DNA of 64,000 bases from Armatimonadota bacterium. GTDB lineage: Bacteria > Armatimonadota > Fimbriimonadia > Fimbriimonadales > Fimbriimonadaceae. The stretch spans positions 1 to 64,000 of the forward strand of contig WGMG01000007.1 in assembly GCA_016125185.1 (NCBI GenBank), given 5' to 3'. The notes under the pieces are model-generated. The model was not told the origin of the DNA. It worked only from the letters and a program-made list of their open reading frames with translations, and did no database searches. A program made the translations under genes and the position numbers. This document shows, piece by piece, positions 34,613 through 40,182 of this stretch; within the stretch, counting starts at the first letter, position 1, and the number at the start of each line of letters is the position of its first letter.

Positions 34613-35718
34613 GCGAGAGAAACAACGCTTGCTTCGCGTTGGGATTCGAGGGCGGCAGTGAAGAGACGGTGGCTTGCAAAGGCTTCTTCAGGAGTTGCGC
34701 ATCGGAACTTCGGTTCGTTGCCTCCCAGTTCATCGACGAACGAGGCCCACATCTGCAAAATGGCGTCGGGAAATCCGAATTCGAAGATGCCGCCAGTGAT
34801 AGCTGGGTACGCCGAAGCGTAGCCCAGGTCTTCCTCGCACCAAGCCTGCGGCTTGCCCGGTTGGTATGGCAAAGTGCGGAGAGTCTTCGGATGGCGAGTG
34901 GAGAATTCGACGCTGTTCTCGGTTCCGTAAATGCAGAGGTACCAAGTGTTGGTATCGCCGGGCGAGATTCGCTTGGTCTCCAGGACCATTGGAAAGCCTG
35001 CTTTGGCTCGGCAAGCTAGGATGGCATTGTCCCACGTCTCGCACGGTGCGGTGCCACCTTTGCCGTCAGGGCGAGTTTCGACGACCTTGGAAAGGAGGGC
35101 GCGGACGTCGGTCGGTTCGAAGCCGAAGCGGAGAGGGAGGTGCAAAACATGGAGGCCAAGGTCGCCCATGCATCCATACTCGCCGCAAGTGGCAACTCGC
35201 CGTTTCCAGTTGATCGGCTTGGTGGGATCGAGGTCGGAGCTGTGGCAGAATCCAGCGCGGACTTCGAGTATTCGACCGAACGCGTTATCGGCGACCATCT
35301 TGGCGATCCTCTGGGCGCCAGGAAAGAAGGGGAATTCGCTTGAGCATCGCACGAGGACGTTTGGGTTCTCCTGGATGCACTCCATGATGGTGTAAGCAGC
35401 CGCAAGATCGATACCAAAGGGTTTTTCGGCGAATAGGTGCTTGCCCGCGCGAATGGCGTCGCAGTAGATAGTTTGGTGGAGGTCGTGCGGCACGGCTACG
35501 TAGACCGCGTCGACGTCGGCTTGGGCGAGAAGCTCTCGATAGTCGGTGGTCGCAAAGGGTGTTTCGAACCACTCCATCGCCTGCGGATTCACGTCGGAGA
35601 CGGCGACGATTTCGGGTCGAGCCGTCATGCCGATCAGATGCTTCCACCGCGCTGCGGCGCTGGCGAATTCGCGGCCCATCAGACCGCAACCGATGATCCC
35701 AAATCGAATGGTCTTCAT
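34609..35718 (-). CDS. Gfo/Idh/MocA-family oxidoreductase
   Basis: About 369 residues from the ATG at 35718; the frame is open for 147 codons upstream but that part lies across the aldolase gene. The N-terminal Rossmann fold has RFGIIGCGLMGREFA and the cofactor motif AEKPFGIDL with its lysine (~residue 95). The C-terminal half is the family's beta domain, with CGEYGCMGDLGLHVLHLP in place of the usual GGG(A/V)L(L/I)D(I/L)G(I/V)H. It probably oxidises or reduces a sugar or inositol with NAD(P). Middle gene of the three-gene operon, with ATGA overlaps at both ends. Confidence 0.88.
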   Translation of the reverse strand: MKTIRFGIIGCGLMGREFASAAARWKHLIGMTARPEIVAVSDVNPQAMEWFETPFATTDYRELLAQADVDAVYVAVPHDLHQTIYCDAIRAGKHLFAEKPFGIDLAAAYTIMECIQENPNVLVRCSSEFPFFPGAQRIAKMVADNAFGRILEVRAGFCHSSDLDPTKPINWKRRVATCGEYGCMGDLGLHVLHLPLRFGFEPTDVRALLSKVVETRPDGKGGTAPCETWDNAILACRAKAGFPMVLETKRISPGDTNTWYLCIYGTENSVEFSTRHPKTLRTLPYQPGKPQAWCEEDLGYASAYPAITGGIFEFGFPDAILQMWASFVDELGGNEPKFRCATPEEAFASHRLFTAALESQREASVVSLA

Positions 35719-36542
35719 GACAGGAAGCCGAGCGCGGTCTCGGGTGTCGCGCCGTCGTGGACAATGCTCATCAGTGCGCGGGTCATGCCCGCGGGATTGC
35801 GGTGCTGAATGACGTTTCGGCCGTAAACGATGCCCATTGCGCCCTGCTCCATCAGGGCATGCGTTCGGCGAAGAATCTCCTCGTCGGGCACGCTTCCTCC
35901 ACCACGCACGAGGACGGGAACGCCGCAGGCGACTTCGACTACACGGTGGTATTCGGCCGCGTCGTCGGTCGGATCGGCCTTGATGATGTCCGCCCCAAGT
36001 TCGACGGCCTGGCGAACCAGGGGGAGGATTTTGTCGATGTCGCCATCGACCATGTAGCCGCCCGCCTTCTGGTTGTCCTGCATGACGAGAGGCTCGACCA
36101 TGAGCGGCATACCATAACGCGTGCAGACCGGTCTCAAGCGACAGACATTGGCCACGCATTGCTCATGGAGTTCGGGCTGATTGGGCAGAAGCAGGAGGTT
36201 GACGACGACACAAGCGGCGTCGAGGATGATCGCCTGCTCCACCGCATCCTCGATCAACTGGCTAAAGAGGCGGGTCGGCAATGAGTGTCCATAGACGTTG
36301 GCGGCGTCGGTGCGCAGCACCAGCGCGGGCTTGGCCCCAGAACGACCCTGTAAGAGCGGCGCGGTACCCGGTGGAAGCTGAATTGCATCCGGCTTAGCGT
36401 CCACCACCGTCTCGATCGCTTGCCGAATATCCTCGATCCCGGTTAGAAAGGTCCGCTCGTTGAAGAAGCCGTGGTCGATGGCGACATCGAAGCACTTTCC
36501 GTCCGATCCAAAGAGTCGGTTGAGCCGGGCCGTTTTGTTCAT
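35715..36542 (-). CDS. Class I (Schiff-base) aldolase of the DeoC/LacD family
   Basis: About 275 residues from the ATG at 36542; the longer frame upstream covers the divergent promoter. The N-terminus is RLFGSDGKCFDVAIDHGFF, and ~150-200 includes VEPLVMQDN. The Schiff-base lysine is probably in GADIIKADPTDD; VLVRGGGSVPDEEIL closes the barrel. This pattern fits the Fba/LsrF-type class I aldolases. It heads the operon with MocA and PfkB. The divergent lipoprotein gene starts 49 bases away, so the promoters share that gap. Confidence 0.82.
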   Translation of the reverse strand: MNKTARLNRLFGSDGKCFDVAIDHGFFNERTFLTGIEDIRQAIETVVDAKPDAIQLPPGTAPLLQGRSGAKPALVLRTDAANVYGHSLPTRLFSQLIEDAVEQAIILDAACVVVNLLLLPNQPELHEQCVANVCRLRPVCTRYGMPLMVEPLVMQDNQKAGGYMVDGDIDKILPLVRQAVELGADIIKADPTDDAAEYHRVVEVACGVPVLVRGGGSVPDEEILRRTHALMEQGAMGIVYGRNVIQHRNPAGMTRALMSIVHDGATPETALGFLS

Positions 36543-36591: not shown

Positions 36592-37143
36592 ATGTATAAG
36601 ATCGTTTCTGTGGGGTGTATTTTTACCATCGCTTTGGCTTTGTGCGGCTGCTCGGGAGGCGATGATTCTAAGACCTCGACCTCAGTGGAAATTGGTGGAA
36701 TGAAGGTGAAGACCAGTGGCGATTCGAAGGACGCCAAAGTGACTTACGAAGGTGACAACGGCGAAAAGGTCACGTTGGACGCATCGAACAACGGATCGGT
36801 AACCATACAGGATAAGGACAGAAAAATGACGGCCGGACAGTCAGAAGTAACGGAAGCCGACCTTGGAGTGCCGCTTTATCCTGGTTCCACGCTGTCCGAA
36901 ATCGGCGATACCAAAATGGAAGTTCCGGAGGAGAAGGGAGCGATTTCGCTTCGCTACACTTCCGACGAGTCAAGCAAGGTTGTCGAATTCTACAAACCCA
37001 AGCTGACGGAAGCAAAGGAAATGGGATCGGGCGACACGATGATGCTGACCGGTAAAGTTGGCGACAAAGGGTCGTTCTCGATGACGCTCACTAAGCAGAA
37101 CGGTAAAACGCTGATTCGAATCGGAACCCAGTTTAAGAAGTAA
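36592..37143 (+). CDS. Lipoprotein, unknown function
   Basis: A 183-residue protein with a lipoprotein signal, ALALCGC, where the Cys after LCG would be lipidated (~residue 20). A Ser/Asp/Lys-rich, probably flexible part to ~95 is followed by a compact domain beginning LGVPLYPGSTL, a phrase common in secreted proteins with a short ~90-residue alpha/beta domain (SLRYTSDESSKVVEFYKPKL). I know no function. It is divergent from the aldolase operon. Confidence 0.75.
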   Translation: MYKIVSVGCIFTIALALCGCSGGDDSKTSTSVEIGGMKVKTSGDSKDAKVTYEGDNGEKVTLDASNNGSVTIQDKDRKMTAGQSEVTEADLGVPLYPGSTLSEIGDTKMEVPEEKGAISLRYTSDESSKVVEFYKPKLTEAKEMGSGDTMMLTGKVGDKGSFSMTLTKQNGKTLIRIGTQFKK

Positions 37144-37210: not shown

Positions 37211-37636
37211 ATGAAACGATTGATCTTAGGTTTGGGTTTGATGTCGGTTGCGGCATTTTCCAATGCGGCTGGCTTCGTGGGAACATATTATGGCGACGCC
37301 TTTGTGACCGGTCTGAACGTGGTTAGCACGACGGGTGTGGTCAATGTCGAATGGCAGGGCTATGAGACGCCCTATCAGGCTAAAACGGCGTGGCGAGTCG
37401 TGATTTGGGATCCGCAGGTTAGTGCCCGAACGCCGGTTGTCAACGAGTGGTTCTATAATTCGCCACGCCCCCGATACTACTCCCATAACTATCAGGTGCC
37501 GTTTGGACACACGGTGCGCGTCGAACTGTATGCGGCTGGAAACCAGATGCCTCAAAGCTGGCCGCTGTCGCATAGCGTCATCACGTACTTTTCCGCAGCC
37601 GCTCTTCAACCGACGGTCTACTATCAGGCCGGATAA
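37211..37636 (+). CDS. Secreted protein A of a tandem paralogous pair, family unknown
   Basis: 141 residues from the ATG at 37211; the frame is open 19 codons upstream without a ribosome site. A clean signal peptide, MKRLILGLGLMSVAAFSNAAG, is followed by a ~120-residue beta-rich domain with many Trp and Tyr. It contains TGVVNVEWQGYETPY, RYYSHNYQVPFGHTVRVEL and WPLSHSVITYF. No Cys is present in the mature part and there is no PEP-CTERM or lipobox, so it should be free in the periplasm or medium. The next gene encodes a clear homologue. Confidence 0.8.
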   Translation: MKRLILGLGLMSVAAFSNAAGFVGTYYGDAFVTGLNVVSTTGVVNVEWQGYETPYQAKTAWRVVIWDPQVSARTPVVNEWFYNSPRPRYYSHNYQVPFGHTVRVELYAAGNQMPQSWPLSHSVITYFSAAALQPTVYYQAG

Positions 37637-37803
37637 GCCCTTCGCCCCAGGGGCTTGTTGGGAAACCGTCGGCGCTAGACCGAATCCTGTTATCAAAGTA
37701 TTAGAAACGATTTATTAAAAATGTGATTAATAATTAGATAACCAAGTTGTCGTAGGCTGGAGTACCGCCGGATCGAATGGTCGGCGGCTTTGGAAGGAAA
37801 CTA

Positions 37804-38202
37804 ATGAAAAAGACTCTCCTTGCTTTGGCAATCCTTGGCTCTGCGGCGTACGCGTCGGCTTGGAACGTCATCGGCTATTGGAATAGCGACGCCTTCGTTT
37901 CTGGAGGCAGCGTCACCAGCAACACCGGCTACGTCAACGTGACGTGGACGGGTTACGAGTCCCCCTACCTTGGTCGCACGCTTTGGAAAATCAAAGTGTG
38001 GGACTATGCCCTTAGCTACACCGTGCCCCAATATGTGGAAACATTCCAGGCCTACGGCTCTTCGACGACCTACTCTCGAAACTATCCGGTTTGGTCCGGT
38101 CATTCGGTACGGGTTGAACTTTGGGCTGAGGGGCACCAGTATCCCAACACGTCGCCGCTGGCCCATGACATCTGCACTTACATGTGGATTCAGCCGGGCT
38201 AG
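37804..38202 (+). CDS. Secreted protein B of the tandem paralogous pair, family unknown
   Basis: 132 residues from the ATG at 37804. The signal peptide is MKKTLLALAILGSAAYASAW. The mature domain repeats the pattern of protein A: DAFVSG, TGYVNVTWTGYESPY, YSRNYPVWSGHSVRVEL and SPLAHDICTYM line up along the whole length with only short gaps. GGAAACTA before the ATG serves as ribosome site. The 167 bases between the two genes are AT-rich and may hold a separate promoter. A hairpin follows at 38210. Confidence 0.8.
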   Translation: MKKTLLALAILGSAAYASAWNVIGYWNSDAFVSGGSVTSNTGYVNVTWTGYESPYLGRTLWKIKVWDYALSYTVPQYVETFQAYGSSTTYSRNYPVWSGHSVRVELWAEGHQYPNTSPLAHDICTYMWIQPG

Positions 38203-38240: not shown

Positions 38241-38279
38241 TAGTCGAAGAAAAGGACCCCAGCGTACAGGCTGGGGCCG

Positions 38280-39566
38280 ATGATATTCTTTAACTCGATG
38301 AATTCCTGCACCGCGGCCGAGGCCGTCCAAGCCATCTCTTCTGGGAATCGGGTTTACATTCACAGTATCGCGGCGGCCCCACGGGCATTGATTCAGGCGA
38401 TGGTCGAACGAGCCAACGAGTTGCGGGGCGTCGAAATCGTCCACCTGCATACCGAAGGGAGTGCGCCATATGCGGAGCCGCAGTACCAAGACAGTTTTCG
38501 CGTCAATGCACTTTTCATCGCCGCCAATACACGCAAGGCCGTACAGGAAGGCCGGGCGGACTACATTCCGGTTTTCCTGAGCGAAGTTCCAGCCCTTTTC
38601 CAGCAGGGCGTTTTACCAATCGATGTTGCCCTCATTCAAGTTTCACCTCCAGATCGTCACGGTTTCTGCTCGCTAGGCGTCTCCGTTGACGCCACTAGGA
38701 GTGCTGTGCTCTGCGCCAAGCACGTGATCGCCCAAGTGAACAAGCACATGCCCCGGACCCATGGCGACGGGCTCATTCACATCGACAACCTGCACGCCTT
38801 TGTGGAGTACGACGAGCCTCTGCCCGAGATTCACCCGCCCGAGCCGACGGCCATCGAGCTCGAAATCGGGCGGCATTGTGCCGAACTGGTCGAAGATGGA
38901 GCGACGCTTCAAATGGGCATCGGCTCGATTCCTAATGCGGTACTAGCAAGCCTGACGCACCATAAGGACCTCGGTGTGCATACCGAGATGTTTTCCGACG
39001 GATTGATCGACTTAGTCGAAAGCGGGGTGGTGAACGGGAGCCGAAAACGCATTCATCCCGGCAAAATCGTCGCTGGTTTCGTGTTGGGCTCGAAGCGAAT
39101 CTACGACTTCATCGACGATAACCCGCTCGTAGCGATGCTCGATATCGCCTATACAAACGATTCTGCGGTCATCCGCCGAAACCCCAAGGTTGCCGCCATT
39201 AACAGCGCGATCGAGGTAGACATCACCGGCCAGGTCTGTGCCGACTCGATTGGAACAAAGCTGTATTCCGGCGTCGGTGGGCAGATGGATTTTATGCGTG
39301 GCGCGGCGCAATCCGAGGGCGGAAAGCCGATCATCGCTTTGCCATCAACGACCAAGAAGGGTGTCTCTCGCATCGTTTCGACCCTGAAGCCCGGCGCAGG
39401 TGTGGTGACGACGCGGGCGCACGTGCATTACGTCGTCACCGAGTTCGGTGCCGTCAATCTCCATGGCAAAAACCTCCGACAGCGCGCCGAGGCATTGATC
39501 GGAATTGCACACCCGGACCATCGCGAACGGCTGGCACGAGAAGCCCACGAGCTGTTCAACTATTAA
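38280..39566 (+). CDS. Acetyl-CoA hydrolase / 4-hydroxybutyrate CoA-transferase family
   Basis: A 428-residue family I CoA-transferase-type protein that moves CoA between acetate and another acid, or hydrolyses acyl-CoA. The catalytic Glu is in LGVHTEMFSDGLIDLVESG (~residue 240), preceded by LQMGIGSIPNAVL. SIGTKLYSGVGGQMDFMRGA is the C-terminal glycine loop. An in-frame ATG at 38298 is also a possible start. It converges with, and overlaps, the SRPBCC gene by 11 bases. It is consistent with acetate or butyrate handling under energy limitation, but this is inference. Confidence 0.88.
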   Translation: MIFFNSMNSCTAAEAVQAISSGNRVYIHSIAAAPRALIQAMVERANELRGVEIVHLHTEGSAPYAEPQYQDSFRVNALFIAANTRKAVQEGRADYIPVFLSEVPALFQQGVLPIDVALIQVSPPDRHGFCSLGVSVDATRSAVLCAKHVIAQVNKHMPRTHGDGLIHIDNLHAFVEYDEPLPEIHPPEPTAIELEIGRHCAELVEDGATLQMGIGSIPNAVLASLTHHKDLGVHTEMFSDGLIDLVESGVVNGSRKRIHPGKIVAGFVLGSKRIYDFIDDNPLVAMLDIAYTNDSAVIRRNPKVAAINSAIEVDITGQVCADSIGTKLYSGVGGQMDFMRGAAQSEGGKPIIALPSTTKKGVSRIVSTLKPGAGVVTTRAHVHYVVTEFGAVNLHGKNLRQRAEALIGIAHPDHRERLAREAHELFNY

Positions 39567-40182
39567 AGCGACGTTCAGCCAGACGTTTCACTTCGCGTAG
39601 CATCTTCCATACCATGATGTAGTGAATGGGGTCAAATACGGTGGCGTGAAAGAAACGAGCGAGCCAACTGAGAGATGGGCGCCAAGTCCCCCGCGCGATG
39701 AATCGGCAAGTCTTCAAATCAACTTGCTCGACGATAAACGCCCATGTGCCTTCCGAATTCTTGGCTACCATGTGATGCCACGGGCGTACCTCGACGATTT
39801 CCATAGCGGCGATGGGACCAAATCGCTCGGTTGGCGCCATTAAGAGCTTCTGACCGGCTTCGCGATTCTTCCACTCTGGCCGCAATGATTCGACTTTAGG
39901 CATCCGAGCGCCAACCAAGTTTTCCAACCATCGATAGCTGTAGAACCCGGCTCGATCCTGCCCAATTTGAGTGATCCAGGGCCAAAGTTGCTCGGCAGGT
40001 ACCCGAATGGTAATCGCCCGGGAGCCGCTTGGCATGGCACCGGGCACTTCGTCATCGCCGGGCCACTTCCTCCTTTTGTCGTCGGGCGTAAGCCCTCGAA
40101 AGAGGAAGAAGGGCCTCATTATGAGCGCCAGAATCGGCATCGCCAACAGAATCCCTACGATGCTGACCAAGAGCCGGAACAT
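39556..40182 (-). CDS. SRPBCC-fold protein with an N-terminal membrane segment
   Basis: A 208-residue protein. Residues ~3-30 (RLLVSIVGILLAMPILALIM) are a membrane anchor. The rest has the pattern of START/polyketide-cyclase-like proteins: RVPAEQLWPWITQIGQDRAGFYSY, AMEIVEVRPWHHMV, and a C-terminal long helix HYIMVWKMLREVKRLAE. It starts three bases after the stop of the HemG-like gene and so is probably co-transcribed with it. The ligand is unknown. Confidence 0.75.
   Translation of the reverse strand: MFRLLVSIVGILLAMPILALIMRPFFLFRGLTPDDKRRKWPGDDEVPGAMPSGSRAITIRVPAEQLWPWITQIGQDRAGFYSYRWLENLVGARMPKVESLRPEWKNREAGQKLLMAPTERFGPIAAMEIVEVRPWHHMVAKNSEGTWAFIVEQVDLKTCRFIARGTWRPSLSWLARFFHATVFDPIHYIMVWKMLREVKRLAERRFNS

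Follow-up and report, generated by a model that had tools for sequence, protein, structure and literature searches.

Tandem genes in an Armatimonadota genome encode members of a rare exported-type protein family with a predicted jelly-roll fold

Results

Two tandem paralogs with signal-peptide-like N-termini

Two small genes lie in tandem on the plus strand at positions 37211-38202 of the window, by which we mean the whole 64,000-nucleotide stretch of Armatimonadota DNA that was analyzed. P1 (37211..37636) encodes 141 amino acids and P2 (37804..38202) encodes 132. The 167-base plus-strand spacer between them (37637..37803) is AT-richer than its surroundings (GC 0.485 and 0.46 in 200-base windows); the P2 promoter may be located within this spacer, in which a consensus search returned no promoter-like sites. 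Upstream of P1 are a DeoC/LacD-family aldolase gene on the minus strand (35715..36542) and a plus-strand lipoprotein gene (36592..37143), whose product has an LCGCSGG lipobox by eye and matches no Pfam family. An acetyl-CoA hydrolase/transferase gene (38280..39566, plus strand) follows P2. Shine-Dalgarno-like sequences are present 5' of P1 (GGAG), of P2 (GGAAGGA) and of two relatives described below.

The original prediction, made from the sequence without database searches, described the two products as homologous secreted proteins of no recognized family. Both open reading frames are present, and blastp produced a gap-free alignment of P1 and P2 that spans 127 residues at 43% identity (E = 2e-36). 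The mature parts aligned with a score of 252, whereas the best of 500 shuffles reached at most 65, so the similarity is far beyond chance. Inspected by eye, both N-termini consist of Lys/Arg and hydrophobic residues and end in A-x-A-like motifs (FSNA in P1, where the signal-peptide-like segment spans residues 1-19, and YASA in P2). The mature parts are about 122 and 113 residues long, which agrees with the predicted signal peptides and domain of ~120 residues. TG-VNV-W-GYE-PY, GH-VRVEL-A-G-Q and PL-H---TY do recur in both proteins, but the serine originally placed at the head of the third is out of register. Neither sequence has a PEP-CTERM sorting tail or a lipobox by eye, as had been stated; the accompanying claim that cysteine is absent fails for P2, which has a single cysteine in its mature part, within DICTYM.

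The family is not covered by the curated models searched

No match of P1 or P2 to Pfam or NCBIfam exceeded the cut-off, nor did searches of PHROGs and PDB sequences yield a significant match, and PADLOC returned 0 families at E ≤ 1 for the four family members described below. The absence of a recognized family is thereby confirmed for these collections. No carbohydrate-binding module (CBM) family matched in Pfam or NCBIfam, and neither GOLD nor PPC matched in Pfam; the PPC family was also not found in the source genome at E ≤ 0.001. Several low-scoring matches were rejected as chance. Fimbrial_K88 (Pfam, P2, E = 0.036) scored 13.9 bits where the cut-off is 26.2 and aligned to residues 1-41, half of which are signal peptide; the others were DUF1459 (E = 2.9), two PHROGs entries (E = 0.19 and 0.22) and the PDB sequence 5klh (E = 0.53). 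As far as sequence comparison reaches, the family is new only in lying outside every curated model searched.

Copies in the source genome and in other Armatimonadota

The original prediction noted only the pair and missed a third paralog in the same genome (4.52 Mb, 13 contigs), which encodes 192 amino acids and lies on contig C1 near 413 kb, flanked by genes for a nucleoside diphosphate kinase and an IS200-like transposase. The transposase gene (Y1 type; L018 7527-7979) is close to this copy and could bear on its placement. A fourth member, of 169 amino acids, is present as a single copy in one other Fimbriimonas genome (G009, hereafter the second species). All four members are single-domain open reading frames with no carbohydrate-active enzyme attached.

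A count of copies across Armatimonadota had been called for, and clear members (E < 1e-60 with a four-row profile) were found in 2 of 291 genomes of the phylum and 2 of 20 of the genus, four members in total, a figure that leaves out nine weak loci. Beyond the four members, the phylum search gave six matches in six other genomes at E ≤ 0.01 (0.0016 to 0.0088), and the genus search at E ≤ 0.1 gave one extra weak match each in the source genome (G000), G011 and G016. Forward open reading frames over the weak match were inspected at seven of the nine loci, a set that excludes L021 and L026, the latter being one of the six phylum matches. We rejected L022, L030 and L025 as members because their matches are of signal-peptide type (L022 and L030 also have PEP-CTERM tails), L027, L028 and L031 as unrelated frames, and L029 (E = 0.004) because the match falls in an enzyme. 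A 29-residue match with an inner stop in the source genome (L010, E = 0.55) was likewise dropped.

No relatives were found in viral contigs, in phages queried with P1 or in plasmids queried with P2. A first scan of genome contigs with short exact peptide patterns, which can miss divergent relatives, detected none; a second pattern scan recovered only one copy (CAMFIS010000005.1, an uncultured Fimbriimonas MAG), which we take to be that of the second species. The family does not appear in the titles of papers in the literature searched.

The four proteins share 37-51% identity in their mature parts across all six pairs. The original prediction took the duplication of P1 and P2 to be recent, which the codon comparison contradicts. 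Because identity at third codon positions is 38% and the NG86 estimates are dS 2.6 (saturated synonymous sites) and dN 0.58, the duplication is, to judge from the coding sequences, old and under purifying selection; dS was beyond computing in three of the six pairs. The best quartet tree joined P1 with P2 and the contig C1 copy with the G009 copy; neither of the two alternatives was rejected (AU 0.18 each), and the tree orders duplication and speciation only tentatively.

Conservation of the neighborhood

The aldolase and acetyl-CoA hydrolase genes are conserved flanks in the second species, where the lipoprotein gene also adjoins the P gene. The window reads aldolase (-), lipoprotein (+), P1 (+), P2 (+), hydrolase (+), and G009 has aldolase, P, lipoprotein and hydrolase, all in matching relative orientation; most likely, gene order or copy number changed between these two loci. 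Since the flanking genes are the same in both species, at least one copy of this very rare family was most likely inherited vertically. Identity between the window and G009 is 75-79% for the aldolase, an oxidoreductase and the hydrolase, 61% for the product of 39556-40182, 56% for a kinase, 49% for P1, 45% for P2 and 33% for the lipoprotein. An exported protein encoded just beyond the hydrolase in G009 (L017 4246-4923, contig C5) has a PEP-CTERM-like tail by eye (VPEP...LLLRKRRD) and matches no Pfam family.

The lipoprotein and hydrolase genes are more widespread than the P genes. Relatives of the lipoprotein occur in 12 of 20 genus genomes, with several copies in some, and its sequence matches point to a genus-level, uncharacterized envelope lipoprotein family. 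The hydrolase (E ≤ 1e-60) is present in 15 of the 20, including the source genome and the second species. Of the 13 further genomes that have the enzyme, 10 were examined upstream of it, and P, lipoprotein and aldolase genes were absent there in all ten. A P profile run at maximum sensitivity on 18 lipoprotein-match loci and these ten upstream stretches recovered only the known members (next best E = 1.2). No glycan-related gene was recognized among the seven neighbors scanned, which are mostly metabolic enzymes plus the lipoprotein.

Predicted fold

AlphaFold2 modeled both P1 (model m82bb0c3f69ad; mean pLDDT 75.6, pTM 0.72) and P2 (model m05ca77df30c7; mean pLDDT 80.0, pTM 0.76) with eight strands, most strand-bearing blocks having a pLDDT of about 84-93; the two models share one alignment with a depth of four rows and are therefore not independent. 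The same all-beta, jelly-roll-like sandwich is predicted for the mature parts of P1 and P2 and, together with the export-type signal peptides, fits the original description of a small secreted beta domain.

For both models the top VIA-align 2 match was the C-terminal part of a SEC14-like protein (P1, Z 8.9, rmsd 3.3, 106 residues aligned; P2, Z 9.7, rmsd 2.6, 98 aligned), a stretch that we take to be its GOLD domain. The GOLD domain of p24beta1 gave Z 8.0 for P1 (rmsd 3.0, 91 aligned) and 9.3 for P2 (rmsd 2.5, 92 aligned); sequence identity in the two top-ranked, SEC14-like rows is 7%. An alginate-binding CBM (P1, Z 7.3, rmsd 3.0, 112 aligned; P2, Z 7.7, rmsd 2.9, 109 aligned) and, for P2, CBM4-2 (Z 8.0, rmsd 2.6, 103 aligned) also matched, although CBM scores up to ~8 fall in the range that the tool calls common, top Z values of 7 to 8 being usual, by its own note, for models that match nothing clearly. 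Among the lower matches listed were p24, the ACBD3 GOLD domain, C1q, MAM/meprin, Pgp3, a viral capsid and several carbohydrate-binding modules. Foldseek matches in the PDB were weak: P1 had one at E ≤ 0.001 and P2 had none, its first 12 rows including CBM35, CBM61, CBM16 and CBM4 at E 0.005-0.012; a viral structure library gave weak matches, with one at E ≤ 0.001.

Judged against that range, the fold matches support a jelly-roll sandwich rather than any particular family. The fold does not name a function, because the jelly-roll is among the commonest beta folds, and TNF/C1q, viral capsids and protease-associated domains match as well. A carbohydrate-binding domain had been named among the known domains that the proteins might prove to contain; a CBM-like fold is suggested by the structural comparison, but no CBM family matches in sequence.

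GOLD, known as a eukaryotic domain of larger proteins such as SEC14-like proteins, p24 and ACBD3, is a small jelly-roll sandwich like the one predicted here and the best fold match of both models, but no sequence similarity to it was found, and P1 and P2 are stand-alone, bacterial and of exported type. They resemble the beta-sandwich CBMs (CBM4, 6, 16, 22, 35, 36 and 61) in predicted fold, size, conserved aromatics and export, yet have no Pfam CBM match and no attached enzyme. PPC and subtilase C-terminal jelly-roll domains have a fold of similar size to that predicted here (Z about 7); P1 and P2 differ from them in having neither an attached protease nor a Pfam PPC match.

A candidate binding face

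Several strands are amphipathic as judged by strand parity, most clearly strands 3, 6 and 7. In mature P1 numbering, two invariant residues, R84 and E86, occupy even positions of strand 7 together with an aromatic one at 88 (Y/W), and the odd positions of this strand are hydrophobic only. On strand 4, K/R at 43 and, in P2, K at 45 mark the outward side, so the invariant W47 would also point outward; the polar side of strand 3 carries N26 and Y32. Strands 4 and 7 are adjacent in one sheet in the canonical jelly-roll order, and the face of that sheet is used by several CBMs. From these outward, conserved residues and the adjacency of their strands in the canonical order, on which the argument is built in place of model coordinates, we infer a putative binding face comprising W47, R84, E86 and Y/W88 on one sheet.

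Discussion

The P family is real, conserved, rare, of exported type and built on a common predicted fold. Little work has been done on Armatimonadota, and in such genomes a large share of what is unexplained consists of small exported proteins that belong to no family. At present the P family counts among the many exported proteins that are restricted to one lineage and share a common fold, and it is a modest curiosity; were its binding role true, it would provide a new small lectin-like scaffold.

Among the extracellular roles originally suggested, binding is the most likely, to judge from the predicted fold. The signal peptide would carry P1 and P2 across the inner membrane, and the mature part would fold as a single eight-stranded jelly-roll beta-sandwich of the GOLD/CBM kind and serve on its own as a binding module, either periplasmic or at the cell surface. 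Contact would be made through the sheet face on which conserved aromatics and charged side chains lie (W47, R84, E86, Y/W88), and the ligand might be a polysaccharide, a guess from the fold class. We therefore read P1 and P2, tentatively and at slightly less than an even chance, as members of a rare, vertically inherited Fimbriimonas family whose products are exported and bind a ligand, perhaps a glycan, through a single jelly-roll domain. The more specific idea of a new family of free-standing jelly-roll lectins (or matrix subunits) confined to the genus, with a charged-aromatic face outside any curated CBM family, appears rather doubtful.

The sandwich could instead self-assemble into an extracellular fiber or matrix layer, with the paralogs as alternative subunits. 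The small size, the three paralogs in the source genome and the Tyr/Pro-rich C-terminal tails of two members are consistent with this, as is the presence of the recombinant Ena2A fiber among the listed P2 fold matches (Z 7.5, rmsd 2.8, 92 aligned) alongside C1q and capsid jelly-rolls. However, many unrelated jelly-rolls rank above Ena2A, P1 and P2 have short tails or none, and no assembly or anchoring gene was recognized beside them. Ena-type fibers are cross-linked via cysteines, and the single cysteine, in P2 only, leaves no conserved cysteines for such links; a structural subunit is an unlikely reading. Still a little less probable is that P1 and P2 serve as periplasmic partners of the neighboring lipoprotein, for example to maintain the envelope, and bind no glycan. 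Both kinds of gene occur together in both family-carrying species and both products are of exported type, but the lipoprotein is found in 12 of 20 genus genomes against 2 of 20 for clear P members, no P-like open reading frame was found at the loci of lipoprotein relatives, and gene order differs between the species.

We give very little credence to a bacteriocin-like toxin or protease inhibitor, the other function originally suggested. The proteins are small, exported and faster evolving than the three nearest enzymes (49 and 45% identity to the second species versus 75-79%), but the lipoprotein evolves fast as well (33%), PADLOC gave no match, and the seven neighbors scanned include no immunity-type partner and no gene for processing or dedicated export. 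A fibronectin type III (FN3) or Ig-like domain, FN3 having been named earlier as a possible known domain, is just as improbable. This reading was prompted by the W-x-V-x-V-W-D motif and by the sub-threshold L029 match (E = 0.004), which falls in a protein, presumably an alpha-L-rhamnosidase-like enzyme, with a YYWRVKVWD stretch resembling the P motif. It was dropped after profile comparison and inspection of the fold matches: FN3 (PF00041) matched none of the four members at E ≤ 10 in Pfam, an hhalign comparison with five FN3 domains from the source genome gave a probability of 0.1% over 9 columns with both profiles shallow, and the 50 matches listed per model are jelly-rolls with no FN3 domain named, an absence that by itself excludes nothing.

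Downstream of the pair, there is a hairpin at 38255-38290, terminator-like on the minus strand, immediately ahead of the ATG listed for the acetyl-CoA hydrolase gene (38280), the true start of which may be 38298.
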